A stretch of 20,257 bases of DNA from positions 1-20,257 of the IMG/VR virus record IMGVR_UViG_3300042883_001796; one strand, written 5' to 3'. The DNA is from a virus. The position numbers were made by a program, and so were the translations under genes. The notes under the pieces were generated by a model. It did no database searches, was not told where the DNA came from, and was given only the letters and a program-made list of their open reading frames with translations. This document shows, piece by piece, positions 6,089-12,956 of the stretch; positions within the stretch are counted from its first letter, which is position 1, and every line of letters begins with the position of its first letter.

Positions 6089-6447
6089 TCCGCGTCTGCC
6101 AAGATTTCGTAGAGGCCGACAAAGCCTGTCAGGTAAGGCAGTCCGACCGGAATGCCGTGGTCGCGCGAAGTGGCGCGGTTGATGGTCCAGCCCATCCAGC
6201 GGGTGATAGCCGCGTCAATGGCAGCCTTGAGGTCGATGCCGCTATGGATGCCGTTCGCGACATCGTCGGCAAAGTGGCGTCCGTGCCGGCTGTCGAGAAA
6301 ATCCCGAACCCCTTCGGCGCTGCCGCTGGTGGCCTTCGCGACCGCGGGGAATGCGATGGTCCAGGCTGCTTGGGGGTCCGCGAAACCGCCTGTGGTGCCG
6401 AAGAAGCCCCAGGCTTCGTTGGCGGTTGTAAGGGTAGAGTTGGTCAT
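6085..6447 (-). CDS. Hypothetical phage protein (120 aa)
   Basis: Not recognised with certainty. 120 residues, MTNSTLTTANEAWGFFGTTG onward, with AVAKATSGSAEGVRDFLDSRHGRHFADDV, then a helical AAIDAAITRWMGW, and an end with GLPYLTGFVGLYEILADAE. It is soluble, with no signal peptide or Cys. Proteins of this look sit in alphaproteobacterial prophages and plasmids beside small unknowns. The gene overlaps the next one by ATGA. Upstream lies a 163-base gap with an inverted repeat at 6452-6476, so its own promoter or an RNA hairpin may sit there. Confidence 0.75.
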   Translation of the reverse strand: MTNSTLTTANEAWGFFGTTGGFADPQAAWTIAFPAVAKATSGSAEGVRDFLDSRHGRHFADDVANGIHSGIDLKAAIDAAITRWMGWTINRATSRDHGIPVGLPYLTGFVGLYEILADAE

Positions 6448-6476: not shown

Positions 6477-6610
6477 TAACGCTCTTTTCGAACCTGCTAT
6501 CCAGTCAAATAGACGGAATTGCTGGACTTTCCGGACTTTGACCCCCGGTCGCTAACTCGCGGTTGCGTGTTTTTTGGACCATGCGCGGTTTCCGCCTGAG
6601 AGGTGCCGAA

Positions 6611-7330
6611 CTATGCGATCCCCCCCGAACCCCGGTGCACCCAGAGGCGCTGCAGATCGGCCCATCCTGGCGGTAGCGCATCCCCCTTTTCCAGGTTGCA
6701 GGAGCGATGGGCGCAGGCGACGTTGTCGTAGGTATGCGACCCGCCAGCAGACAGCGGGATGATGTGATCAAGTTCCGGAGCGTTCCAACGCATCGTTCCG
6801 CGCAGTTCCCGAGGAGCTTCCTCGCCGCAGATGTGACAGGTCCATCCGTCACGATCCATGACCACTATAGGATTGATCGGTTCAGCTTCGGCCCCATAGG
6901 ATCTCGCGCGGGCCACGCCCTTGGTGACACGTTTGAAATGGCGGCTAGCGCAAAATTCCGAACAGAAATTACGTCGCTTGTCTCCATACGCTGGCAGGAA
7001 TGTGCTGCCGCACTCCTGACATGTGCATTCTGCCTTTGTGGCTGCCTTGCTTCGCGCCGAACACTGGTGGGAGCAAAACTTCGCACCCGCCTGTGCTTCG
7101 AACACTCCAACGCATTCAATGCACCGACGTTGACGCTCGGCCTTCCTGGCTTCGGCAAGACGGGCCAGCCTGGCAGCCCGTGAGGCAGAGCGCTCACGCC
7201 GCATCATTTCAAAACCGCACGCGCGTGAGCAGCACCGTCCACTGTCACGCGACTTTCGGATCCGCCTTGTGATTGGCTGAGAGCAGATCTGGCATAGAGG
7301 AGCGGTGCCCGCCGAGGCGAATTGTGCCAT
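6611..7330 (-). CDS. HNH endonuclease with three tandem Cys4 zinc modules
   Basis: 239 residues. The C-terminal HNH domain has CHICG (165-169), ELDHIIPLSAGG (about 187-198) and VACAHRSCNLEKG (about 205-217), all HNH landmarks. Before it lie three CxxC...CSxxC-type units: C13/C16 with C34/C38, C70/C73 with C86/C90, and C104/C107 with C123/C127. They are separated by basic Arg/Lys/Ala-rich helices and would bind zinc and DNA. In HK97-like phages an HNH protein near terminase helps nick or cleave DNA for packaging. ATG at 7330 follows a good GGGAGG site. Why it carries several zinc modules is unclear; it could instead be a homing-type nuclease. Confidence 0.88.
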   Translation of the reverse strand: MAQFASAGTAPLCQICSQPITRRIRKSRDSGRCCSRACGFEMMRRERSASRAARLARLAEARKAERQRRCIECVGVFEAQAGAKFCSHQCSARSKAATKAECTCQECGSTFLPAYGDKRRNFCSEFCASRHFKRVTKGVARARSYGAEAEPINPIVVMDRDGWTCHICGEEAPRELRGTMRWNAPELDHIIPLSAGGSHTYDNVACAHRSCNLEKGDALPPGWADLQRLWVHRGSGGIA

Positions 7331-10093: not shown

Positions 10094-10636
10094 TCAGAAC
10101 GGGATGTCTGACAGCTCGTCGTCGAGCTGCTCGAGCGCGGCGCGGCTGGGACGAACGCTCACCACCTGCGCGCCGGGAAAAGCGTCCTTCGCCGCGGCGA
10201 GGATCGGGTGGCAGCGGATGACGTTGGCGACCTCATCGAGCGACCAGACCTGAGCTTGCCGGCCATGACGCTGGACCCGGCCAGTATCGCGCAGGTCGCG
10301 CACAAGGATGACGAGGCCGTTCGGCGTCTCGAGCTCCCACTGGTCGACCGGCAGCGGTGCGCCCTTGGCTTCCCGGGCCAACTGGTCGAGCTTGTCGTAG
10401 GCCCGCAGCATGGCGTTGCCGTGCTGGCGAACGAGCTTGAGGTCGAACTCCCACACAGCAGCGTTGAACAGCTTGTGCTGCTGGTGGAACCGTTCAGCCC
10501 ATTCGATCGGCACCAGCATGGGCAAGCGGCCGATGCCCCAGTGCTGGTCCAGTTCACTACCACGCTGGTCGACGCAGTTGATGATGACCTGCATGTCGCT
10601 GATCTGACCATGCCGGGTCGGTGGCGCGCCTTTCAT
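10094..10636 (-). CDS. Hypothetical phage protein (180 aa), replication region
   Basis: Not recognised as a named family. It reads MKGAPPTRHGQISDMQVIIN, then RLPMLVPIEWAERFHQQHKL and AAVWEFDLKLVRQHGNAMLR, then WELETPNGLVILVRDLRDTG, VWSLDEVANVIRCHPILAAA and DELSDIPF. Mixed alpha/beta and soluble. The acidic, hydrophobic tail DDELSDIPF is the kind of C-terminal tip seen on SSB proteins (D-D-I-P-F). That is a striking resemblance and suggests interaction with replication partners. The ATG overlaps the 66-residue ORF stop as ATGA and follows AAGGAGGGG. Its position next to the repeat array and primase supports a replication role. Confidence 0.8.
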   Translation of the reverse strand: MKGAPPTRHGQISDMQVIINCVDQRGSELDQHWGIGRLPMLVPIEWAERFHQQHKLFNAAVWEFDLKLVRQHGNAMLRAYDKLDQLAREAKGAPLPVDQWELETPNGLVILVRDLRDTGRVQRHGRQAQVWSLDEVANVIRCHPILAAAKDAFPGAQVVSVRPSRAALEQLDDELSDIPF

Positions 10637-10833
10637 GCGCCCCTCCTTTCTTTGCTGATAAATTGAGGCTGACGACGCGCTTGGGCGTTGTCGGAAGCCC
10701 TAGGGGGTATGGGGGGGAAGCGACTGCGCGTTCCGACGGCTTCCGACCGTGCTTCCGCCGCCTTCCGACTGGCTTCCGACTGACGCAAAACCGTGCTTCC
10801 GACTGCTTCCGACAACTGGGTTTTGGGGCTCAT
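10633..10833 (-). CDS. Small repeat-built ORF (66 aa) carrying the CTTCCGAC array
   Basis: Starts ATG 10833 in an ATGA overlap with the primase-helicase stop (10830-10833) and ends in an ATGA overlap with the next gene (10633-10636), so it fits the operon exactly. It reads MSPKTQLSEAVGSTVLRQ, then SEASRKAAEARSEAVGTR, then SRFPPIPPRASDNAQARRQ, then PQFISKERRGA. Composition is Ser/Glu/Ala/Arg-rich and probably partly disordered. The region is built from copies of GTCGGAAG read in three different frames, so the protein repeat is imperfect while the DNA repeat is preserved. It could be a real small protein, or a frame kept open to couple translation across a DNA signal. Function unknown. Confidence 0.55.
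   Translation of the reverse strand: MSPKTQLSEAVGSTVLRQSEASRKAAEARSEAVGTRSRFPPIPPRASDNAQARRQPQFISKERRGA
10690..10813. repeat. Iteron-like CTTCCGAC repeat array, candidate replication origin
   Basis: On the plus strand, CTTCCGAC occurs at 10740, 10762, 10773, 10796 and 10806. Near copies occur at 10730 (GTTCCGAC) and 10752 (CTTCCGCC), and an inverted copy GTCGGAAG lies at 10690-10697. Start-to-start spacings of the direct copies are about 10, 12, 10, 11, 23 and 10 bases, so sites recur on one helix face. It lies between the primase-helicase and a replication-region gene, in the 66-residue ORF. The flanks contain runs of G (10703-10717) and an AT-richer stretch near 10660. Confidence 0.65.
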
Positions 10834-12869
10834 CTGTCGGGCTCCAGGTACTTGACGACCCTGAGTCCAGAGGCCTTTCCGTGAAACTTTCCGGCCTCGG
10901 TGACGAGGTAGCCATGCTGCTGCCACTTGGTGATCGAGGTCTCTGCCTCGCGCTTGGTGACCCCATATTGATCCGAGATCAGGTCAACGGCGAACCGGCC
11001 CTTGCGCCGGGCATGGGGGAATACCGACCAGGGCGCGCCGCCTCGCCAGGCCTCGTCGATCGCCTGGAAGATATCTCGGATCTGGTGCCAGCTGAGGCGC
11101 TTTTCCCCGACCGGCGTTGCACCGGCGCCCAGCACCGGCACCAGCGTGCTCTGCTCGGCCCCAAGCCCCGTGGCGAGATCGACCACCTTCATCGTGAAAT
11201 GGAGGTCGTCGAGCTCTTCGCCGTCCTTCTGCTTCTCGACCGACAGGACCGTTTTGTCCTCGTCCTTGGCGACCCGGATCGAGGTGTCGCAGCCGCCCAG
11301 CAGCACGGTCGAGCCGCGCATGCCGCGGTCGAGATTCTTGCCCGCGTGGTGGACGCCGATCACGCTCCCGCTGCAATGTTGCTGAATGTCGGCGCAGCCA
11401 TCGATGAACATCGACATGGCTTCCTGGCTGTTCTCATCCTCTCCAGGGATCGAGCGCGACACGGTGTCGATCACGACCAGACCGATCTCAAAATCGACCT
11501 CGGCGCGCACTTGGTCGATCGTCCGCTTCAGCTTCTCGATGCTGGCAGGATCAAGCATGTGGACGGCAAAGGGCAGCAGCTTGAACGGCGCGTCGACGCC
11601 TTCCAGCCCGTGCTCACGGCGCCAGCCCTTGATGCGCTGGCCGATGCCGTATTTGCCTTCGCCCGCAATGTAGAGGATGCCCGTCTGCCTGGTGGCCTTG
11701 CCGTGCCAGTCGAGGCCGTAGGCAACCCTGAGCACCATATCGAGCGCGATGAAGGTCTTGTGCTCCCCTGGCCGGCCGTAGAGCAGGACGAGGCCGTGCG
11801 ACGGGATCAGGCCATCGATCCGCCAGCTGGGCGGCGGCATATTGTCGATCTCGTCGAGGCTGAGGGTCTCGAAGACGTCTGGGCTGACGGTAATATCAGC
11901 GGGCGCGCTGCCGGCCTCCAGCGAGGCCCTGACGGCATCCATGCCCGACAGCGCGGCCATGTCGTTGAAGTCAGTGCCGGGGCTGGCAGCTGGAAATGTG
12001 GGGAATACCGCCCGGCAACCAAGGATGTACGCAGCGGCGATGGCCGCTTCGCGTCCGGGGTTCTTGGCCTTGCCGCGATCATCATCGCCGGCCACTATCC
12101 AGTCAGTGCCTGGGTGAGCCGATACCAGCCTCTCGGCGACCTTGGCGAGATTACCGGCGTTGAAGACCACGACAACGGTGTTGCCGGTCGCTTCGTGAAG
12201 CGTGGCACCAGTGGCAAACCCTTCGCAAAGGAGGACAGGCCCCAAAGCCTCGCCGATCCTGCTGCCAATTATGAACATGCCGCCCGCGGTCGGCAGGTCG
12301 GAGCAGAATAGCTTGTGGCCCGCTGCGTCGATTGTCTGCAGCGACTGGATTTTGCCGTCCGGCCCATGGAGGGGAACGAGAATGTTGGCGCCATCGAGCC
12401 GCGTGCCGACCGGCCCGATGCCCTTCGCCGCGAGATAGGGATGGCTGGTGTAGGTGGGGTCCGCTGCAATCCAGCGCTCGCGCGCCTGGCGCATGGCGGC
12501 ATCGCGGCGCATCGCCTGTTCGGCCTCGAACAGTGCTTGGCGGACCTTGAGTTCGGCGACGCGGTCGGCCGACATAACCGGGAATGTCCCGCCGGTCAGG
12601 CTCTCTGCCGCCGCCCGGATATCGAGGCCTTCCTGGTGCTGCAGGAAATCGAAGATGTCGCCGTGAGTCCCGCAGCCAAAGCAATGGAACCGCTCTTCCT
12701 GCGGATAAACAGTGAAGGATGGCGTGCGCTCCATATGGAACGGGCACAGGCCCACAATGGTTTGCCCCCGGCGCTTCAGCACCAGATGCCGGCGCACCTC
12801 ATCGGCCAGAGGGAACTGGTCCTTGATAGCGTCGATATCGATGCTGCCGGTTTCAATACGACGCGCCAT
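10830..12869 (-). CDS. Phage primase-helicase fusion (CHC2 zinc finger, Toprim, RecA-like ATPase)
   Basis: About 679 residues from ATG 12869. A GTG at 12932 would add 21. Order: a CHC2-type zinc finger (C42-P-F-H45, C63-F-G-C66), a middle region, then a Toprim domain with VLLCEGFATG (E216) and GDDDRGK (about 261-267). Next comes a RecA-like ATPase with Walker A YGRPGEHKT (about 364-372), Walker B LVVIDTVSRS (464-473) and IGVHHAGKN. A C-terminal winged-helix-like tail ends VVKYLEPDR. It should unwind DNA and make RNA primers at the phage fork. The fusion of primase with a KaiC/RepA-type ATPase is typical of temperate phages and plasmids. It ends in an ATGA overlap with the 66-residue repeat ORF. 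Confidence 0.93.
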   Translation of the reverse strand: MARRIETGSIDIDAIKDQFPLADEVRRHLVLKRRGQTIVGLCPFHMERTPSFTVYPQEERFHCFGCGTHGDIFDFLQHQEGLDIRAAAESLTGGTFPVMSADRVAELKVRQALFEAEQAMRRDAAMRQARERWIAADPTYTSHPYLAAKGIGPVGTRLDGANILVPLHGPDGKIQSLQTIDAAGHKLFCSDLPTAGGMFIIGSRIGEALGPVLLCEGFATGATLHEATGNTVVVVFNAGNLAKVAERLVSAHPGTDWIVAGDDDRGKAKNPGREAAIAAAYILGCRAVFPTFPAASPGTDFNDMAALSGMDAVRASLEAGSAPADITVSPDVFETLSLDEIDNMPPPSWRIDGLIPSHGLVLLYGRPGEHKTFIALDMVLRVAYGLDWHGKATRQTGILYIAGEGKYGIGQRIKGWRREHGLEGVDAPFKLLPFAVHMLDPASIEKLKRTIDQVRAEVDFEIGLVVIDTVSRSIPGEDENSQEAMSMFIDGCADIQQHCSGSVIGVHHAGKNLDRGMRGSTVLLGGCDTSIRVAKDEDKTVLSVEKQKDGEELDDLHFTMKVVDLATGLGAEQSTLVPVLGAGATPVGEKRLSWHQIRDIFQAIDEAWRGGAPWSVFPHARRKGRFAVDLISDQYGVTKREAETSITKWQQHGYLVTEAGKFHGKASGLRVVKYLEPDR

Positions 12870-12956
12870 GACGGCCAGGGTCACTTTCTGCTGGGGGATG
12901 AACGGCGTGTCAGAAGGCTGGAGCCGGGCCACCGCAGCAGCCCGGCATCATCGCGA

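Follow-up and report, generated by a model that had tools for sequence, protein, structure and literature searches.

To find the origin, a helicase of the RepA/DnaB kind usually depends on a separate initiator and a loader; RSF1010 has an iteron origin. RSF1010 uses three proteins, RepA, RepB' and RepC, of which RepC opens oriV for RepA (PMC8965321, PMC4234260). SaPI and PICI elements have their origin immediately 3' of the gene for the initiator, in a region that supports plasmid replication (PMC6092414). The isolated C-terminal domain of SCCmec Cch2 binds repeats directly downstream of its gene (PMC7581432), and the SaPI Rep origin has been described in similar terms, with the C-terminal domain reading iterons 3' of the gene (Ubeda et al., 2007, as cited in PMC7581432). 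In PMC4234260, P4 alpha is described as a single polypeptide with a Toprim primase, a hexameric helicase and a C-terminal winged-helix origin-binding domain, and pRN1 ORF904 has a C-terminal winged helix too. In Vibrio cholerae PLE, the DNA-binding domain of RepA and the iterons have been swapped repeatedly as a module, and these specificity swaps are probably driven by an origin-directed nuclease (PMC8263062).

Here we analyzed a stretch of virus DNA of 20,257 nucleotides (IMG/VR record IMGVR_UViG_3300042883_001796), referred to below as the window. A preliminary description had noticed an array of short repeats and left its initiator unidentified; the evidence now favors a domain of the neighboring primase-helicase, its C-terminal winged helix. 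Quite likely the array is the iteron-type origin of a temperate sphingomonad phage and is read by this domain of the upstream primase-helicase, and we regard the iteron-origin reading as the best one. The supporting observations, all made at the sequence level, are the array itself, its conservation, the predicted winged-helix fold, the concerted switching of domain and repeats, their exchange as a cassette, and the covariation of wing residue 684 with repeat bases in held-out loci. The features of the protein are as follows.

10830-12932, minus strand: primase-helicase, 700 aa (Pfam, PDB profile and fold matches)
Residues 33-113, minus strand: CHC2 Zn ribbon of the primase-helicase (Pfam PF01807, 2.9e-24)
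Residues 233-330, minus strand: Toprim domain (Pfam PF13362, 9e-9)
Residues 363-533, minus strand: RecA-fold, RepA-type helicase domain (Pfam PF13481, AAA_25, 1.1e-31)
10833-11132, minus strand: winged-helix domain, residues 601-700, proposed to bind the origin (AlphaFold2, Foldseek, exchange with the array)
10917-10955, minus strand: predicted recognition helix, residues 660-672 (AlphaFold2 model)
10881-10883, minus strand: codon of the wing-tip residue His684, between strands 676-679 and 689-692 (covariation and held-out rule)

Profile and fold searches agree that the closest solved structure to the helicase domain is hexameric RSF1010 RepA (PDB profile match to 1g8y, 1.7e-10; fold matches to 1nlf/1g8y, E 5e-11, TM-score (target) 0.70-0.73). 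Residues 601-700 match no Pfam family and are predicted to fold as a winged helix. Their AlphaFold2 model has a mean pLDDT of 83.8 with a core >90 and the order H-H-H-H-E-E (helices 615-630, 639-644, 648-656 and 660-672; strands 676-679 and 689-692). The top Foldseek matches are winged-helix domains, with probabilities mostly of 0.9-0.98, and the nearest solved structures are almost all winged-helix proteins, for example of the PefI, LexA, IscR and MarR types; since the E values are 0.04-0.2, the fold call rests on the topology together with the search score. At the other end of the protein, four relatives (loci L026, L027, L030 and L031) keep the helicase, the winged helix and the array and have a replaced N-terminal half with no match to the CHC2/Toprim region of the window. 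These halves are perhaps PrimPol-like primases, and from the sequences primase domains seem to be exchanged too in this helicase family.

The array and its surroundings comprise the following features.

10806-10813, minus strand: iteron 1, GTCGGAAG (motif scan)
10796-10803, minus strand: iteron 2, GTCGGAAG (motif scan)
10773-10780, minus strand: iteron 3, GTCGGAAG (motif scan)
10762-10769, minus strand: iteron 4, GTCGGAAG (motif scan)
10752-10759, minus strand: iteron 5, GGCGGAAG, one mismatch, perfect in some relatives such as L001 and L006
10740-10747, minus strand: iteron 6, GTCGGAAG (motif scan)
10730-10737, minus strand: iteron 7, GTCGGAAC, one mismatch (motif scan)
10698-10722, minus strand: C-rich element CTTCCCCCCCATACCCCCTAGGG, conserved in the alignment of relatives, between iteron 7 and the inverted copy
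10690-10697, plus strand: inverted iteron, covarying with the direct copies (L008, L025 and L042 have CTTCCGCA)
10640-10670, no strand: A+T-richer stretch (55% vs 38% in the window), the sole candidate unwinding element seen
10633-10833, minus strand: 66-codon bridging ORF containing the array, with an ATGA overlap at both ends and a frame kept in close relatives
10094-10636, minus strand: 180-aa gene, the same in all three cassette types

The motif scan of the window found five perfect direct copies of CTTCCGAC, which reads GTCGGAAG in the gene sense (minus strand), starting at 10740, 10762, 10773, 10796 and 10806, two direct copies with one mismatch starting at 10730 and 10752, and a single, perfect inverted copy starting at 10690. 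The earlier count of seven direct copies (five perfect) and one inverted copy in 124 bases (10690-10813), mostly 10-12 bases apart, was thus exact on recount; the steps between successive direct copies are 10, 12, 10, 11, 23 and 10. No perfect copy of CTTCCGAC occurs elsewhere in the 20-kb window. Counted on both strands, the top 7-mer, GTCGGAA, is found seven times in the 300 bases past the primase stop, while the most frequent 7-mer in 200 dinucleotide shuffles reaches a maximum of 3, and in the 194 other stretches of 300 bp in the window a 7-mer count of 7 is never reached (maximum 4). The A+T content of the array is 30-44%, vs 38% for the window, and the composition scan found no clear A+T-rich element in the window array, the stretch at 10640-10670 being the one richer part. 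A C-rich or hairpin element lies in or at the 3' edge of the arrays (CCCCCCCATACCCCCTAGGG in the window at 10698-10722, CCCCTAAAGGGG in relatives) and is also found behind the helicase gene in L026, L031, L120, L121, L134 and L135; it may be a priming site, a single-strand initiation hairpin or a terminator.

Primase relatives were gathered from viral and bacterial sequence collections. The close relatives with named hosts belong to sphingomonads, including Novosphingobium sp. ST904, and every close relative has an array right after the primase stop. Their repeat is mostly GTCGGAAG; some carry a regular mixture with GTCGCAAG, and L008, L025 and L042 are of the TGCGGAAG type throughout. Arrays with differing motifs accompany the helicase family in alpha- and gammaproteobacterial phages: distant members carry TACGGAAGT, TGCCGGAAGT, ACGGAACTT, TGCGGAAGC, GTGCTGCAA and others, Rhizobium phage RHph_N65 has TGGCGGAGAT, Roseobacter phage CRP-406 has GCTGGAAATG, and Alteromonas XX1924, Salicola CGphi29 and Idiomarinaceae 1N2-2 have TGGTTCA, GGGGACA and CGGTACA, respectively. 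The repeat count beats all 200 shuffles at 24 of 26 family loci, including these five isolates, and at none of nine loci that have a different C terminus or a different gene. Across the family, most neighboring copies are spaced by 10 (42 cases), 11 (12 cases) or 12 bases (21 cases). The copies carried 3' of the helicase gene number 6-14 and lie at varying distance; in a further subgroup that lacks one immediately after the gene, an array of this kind is often present 0.2-2 kb further downstream. In the sequence examined, 8 of 37 winged-helix relatives had no array. Not all RepA-like phage helicases come with the module: those of mycobacteriophages and Gordonia differ in their C termini, and no array follows the gene.

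Several further features were seen in the relatives. Plasmid p1 of Caenibius sp. WL (L155, NZ_CP081845.1, 1-38127) is circular, 38 kb long and phage-like; it carries the module with 12 TGCGGAA repeats as well as capsid, terminase and integrase genes and is possibly a phage-plasmid. Blocks of the AAGTCATTGAAATCATTG type lie between repeat clusters in L026, L027, L030, L031, L112, L141, L145, L179, L186 and L201, and their reverse strand fits the IHF consensus WATCAANNNNTTR with 0-1 mismatch. Good matches occur in distant members, with none in the window group at <=1 mismatch, so IHF sites are not claimed for the window. L138 has TGTAACA-type repeats, direct and inverted, at ~6500-6800, about 0.5 kb downstream of an unrelated primase, and L205 has a dense GCCGCA/GACGCC triplet-like repeat at 6100-6400 that is probably an alanine-rich coding stretch. 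In three of five isolate genomes the GC skew has its minimum within 1-2.5 kb of the array, where genes diverge; we rejected GC skew as independent proof of an origin because it is confounded by divergent transcription and the minimum is absent in the other two.

The placement of the arrays bears on what they do. Iteron initiators often autoregulate, and the window array sits inside an operon, between two overlapping genes, so it could be an operator through which the primase-helicase represses or times the replication operon via its own 3' region, with no start of replication there. We consider this unlikely: the array is behind the gene and not at a promoter, the 6-14 copies at varying 3' distance are more than an operator needs, and the proposed binder is the replicative primase-helicase. 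The neighboring genes also argue against an operator, since the next gene is convergent in RHph_N65 and an opposed gene overlaps the helicase end in EBPR siphovirus 5; the array is thus placed between or beside converging genes in these two. It is quite unlikely that the array serves the same domain as a partition, incompatibility or origin-decoy site while replication starts elsewhere. Arrays up to 2 kb away from the gene would fit such a role, but no partition genes were recognised beside the array, the array sits in the replication module, and SaPI and PICI origins occupy the same place (PMC6092414, PMC7581432). This shared layout with SaPI/PICI and Cch2 replicons makes a replication origin the most likely function of the array.

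Next, we consider which protein reads the repeats. The approximate boundaries of an exchangeable unit were obtained from the identity breaks of L008, L025 and L042 against the window.

10682-11132, minus strand: exchangeable cassette of winged helix and array, approximate

In these three relatives the DNA has an identity of 0.74-0.86 to the window up to -300 from the primase stop and of 0.56-0.70 beyond that point, and it is back to ~0.9 at +150, just beyond the inverted copy; at the protein level the drop falls at codon 601. From these breaks, the winged helix and the array have been swapped together, between a helicase body and a 180-aa gene that are unchanged. In 25-residue blocks, the three winged helices are 92-100% identical among themselves vs about 48-64% to that of the window, and upstream of residue 601 the same proteins are as near to the window as other relatives are (L025 is 88-100% identical over residues 451-600). 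In L074, L124 and L125 the same 180-aa gene is preceded by a third cassette, with another C terminus and an unrelated array. Judged by these sequences, winged helix and iterons are exchanged as one cassette in natural recombinants.

A finer correspondence was found within the domain. For 32 non-redundant members with a CGGA core, the two repeat bases 5' of CGGA were scored against the protein columns. Column 684 has a mutual information of 1.75 bits vs 0.69 by chance (z = 10.3), and the next-ranked columns are gap-driven (z 6.3 and 5.4), with amino-acid columns at about 4. All ten GG arrays go with K684, five of six TA arrays with D684, and all 11 TG arrays with H, N, R or M. Close pairs of unlike class also differ at this position (L155/L164, H/D; L141/L178, K/D; L027/L030, D/H; L026/L122, T/R), and in the AlphaFold2 model the residue sits at the wing tip. 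The rule (K-GG, D-TA, H/N/R-TG) was fixed before the last two scans, and in 43 of 45 discovery sequences the pattern used to locate residue 684 picks the same residue as the alignment column. In 17 held-out arrays, which come from new contigs with <90% C-terminal similarity to the discovery set and are not phylogenetically independent of it, the rule gave the exact dinucleotide in 13 and was wrong in four (chance 4.8; 0 of 20,000 permutations as good). It was right in 11 of the 12 held-out arrays with a clear consensus and in 9 of the 13 held-out loci with <0.75 similarity. Loci with S684 have no dominant dinucleotide, a mixture that the rule foresaw. In the window's own group the rule fails, H being found with GT and not TG. 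Across the sequences compared, residue 684 thus appears to predict largely the two repeat bases 5' of CGGA.

These data also bear on the possibility that another phage or host protein binds the array and the winged helix merely contacts that protein. The obvious candidate is the product of the 180-aa gene, which follows the array in all close relatives, is strongly conserved across every cassette type and has no match in Pfam or PHROG. We rejected it as the binder because the gene stays the same where motif and winged helix have been swapped; it is also absent from distant members that still carry arrays. Indirect contact through any such protein would not let a single wing residue predict repeat bases in new sequences, and we consider this explanation very improbable. 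Putative binding of the array by the winged helix of the primase-helicase is strongly supported by the sequence evidence.

The ORF across the array was examined for selection on its peptide. As described earlier, it is fitted by ATGA overlaps at both ends: its ATG shares bases with the TGA of the primase-helicase, and its own TGA with the ATG of the 180-aa gene. The repeat is indeed translated as SEA, VGS or RK, depending on the frame. The suggestion that selection acts on the DNA and not on the peptide also held: within the GTCGGAAG group repeat positions are 11% variable vs 37% for spacers, the three codon positions are equally variable, and the peptide is unrelated between cassettes where the repeats are conserved in kind and place. 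Neither of the outcomes that were to count against the array, a protein kept with synonymous changes in the repeats or repeats lost with the same primase, was seen. That the repeats are a by-product of repetitive coding sequence or of base-composition chance, as the open frame with its ATGA junctions kept in relatives might suggest, has a negligible probability and is refuted by the use of three frames, the even codon-position variation and a GTCGGAA count above all shuffles and other window stretches.

The frame itself is open in all close relatives, where compensating one-base indels preserve the stop/start overlap at both ends. In the third cassette, of unrelated sequence, a 90-codon frame again joins both neighbors. 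A frame was open by chance in 36%, 23% and 8% of shuffles, so openness alone is not very unlikely. A stop-free frame with ATGA or TGATG junctions on both sides is nevertheless present in three unrelated repeat cassettes (10633-10833 in the window, L042 and L074), and the exact junctions suggest that translation across the array region is useful. The 66-codon ORF is probably kept open to let ribosomes pass over the proposed origin and reach the 180-aa gene.

For the array as an origin read by the winged helix, we propose the following mechanism. Several winged-helix copies would bind GTCGGAAG sites one or two helical turns apart, with the recognition helix reading the core and the wing tip reading the two bases 5' of CGGA. 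Binding would gather the RecA-fold helicase and its fused CHC2/Toprim primase at the origin, where the assembled primase-helicase would open the DNA, load and prime. We infer from the comparisons above the physical binding, the opening and loading that would proceed without a separate initiator, and the start of replication at the array. Extended to the relatives, the proposal describes a large phage family with a self-recognising, self-loading RecA-fold primase-helicase that works without a separate initiator or loader, in a cassette with the wing-tip code at residue 684 (K-GG, D-TA, H/N/R-TG); on balance we lean slightly toward this broader claim.

If the proposal is true, primase, helicase and origin reader in one chain with an adjacent origin would constitute a minimal, portable replicon in which the loading of a RecA-fold ring could be studied cleanly. 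It would also provide a rule by which sequence shows where the origins lie in many uncharacterised phages and phage-plasmids, and with the wing-tip code origin sequences could be read from the protein. The joint exchange of reader and sites, together with switches that coincide with one wing residue, would form an evolutionary series that bears on how DNA-binding specificity and a set of sites change in step. Since the PLE exchange is probably nuclease-driven (PMC8263062), a similar conflict may act on the winged-helix/array cassettes.

The working principle is already known from P4, SaPI/PICI and Cch2. The window locus resembles SaPI/PICI Rep, Pri-Rep and Cch2 in its combination of primase and helicase functions, in a C-terminal domain that recognises short, many-copy iterons directly 3' of the helicase gene, and in a specificity that varies between elements; the window array does lie directly 3' of the primase/helicase gene, and at the sequence level the C-terminal DNA-binding domain of the helicase appears to read it. 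The helicases differ: those of SaPI/PICI/Cch2 are D5-, DUF927- or related AAA+ proteins, whereas that of the window has a RecA fold nearest to RSF1010 RepA, matching Pfam AAA_25 and RepA instead of a D5-, DUF927- or SF3-type AAA+ helicase. In PICI origins an A+T-rich region is flanked by two iteron sets, whereas the window has a single cluster and one inverted copy. The helicase of P4 alpha is of the SF3 type, and the binding sites of this protein are not known to form a single array behind its gene. The window protein likewise has a Toprim primase, a helicase and a C-terminal winged helix in one chain, but its helicase is of the RecA fold and not SF3, and no sequence relation to P4 alpha was found. 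Because the helicase superfamily and the two-block layout differ, we do not claim membership in the P4, SaPI/PICI or Cch2 families.

RSF1010 shares the helicase family, with both sequence and fold matching RepA (SF4), as well as an iteron origin. It divides among three proteins what the window has in one chain as primase, helicase and proposed iteron reader, and no RepC-type match was found in Pfam or PHROG for the proteins next to the array. PLE RepA is alike in that binding domain and iterons are exchanged together; its RepA_N domain, however, is at the other end of a protein unrelated to that of the window, and its iterons are ~30-bp semi-palindromes. The analogy with lambda drawn in the preliminary description is a loose one: in both, iterons overlap an ORF in a phage replication module, but the lambda iterons are inside the initiator gene O, whereas the window array is outside the primase-helicase gene and behind it, as in P4/SaPI-type replicons, in a separate ORF whose peptide is not conserved. 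A RepA-type phage helicase with such an origin was not described in the open-licence PMC papers searched, and a description may exist elsewhere. What we regard as new in comparison with these systems is a RepA-type (RecA-fold) helicase with a putative fused origin reader, widespread and with diversified arrays, whose reader and sites apparently move together as a cassette and whose wing residue would provide a code for predicting the origin sequence.
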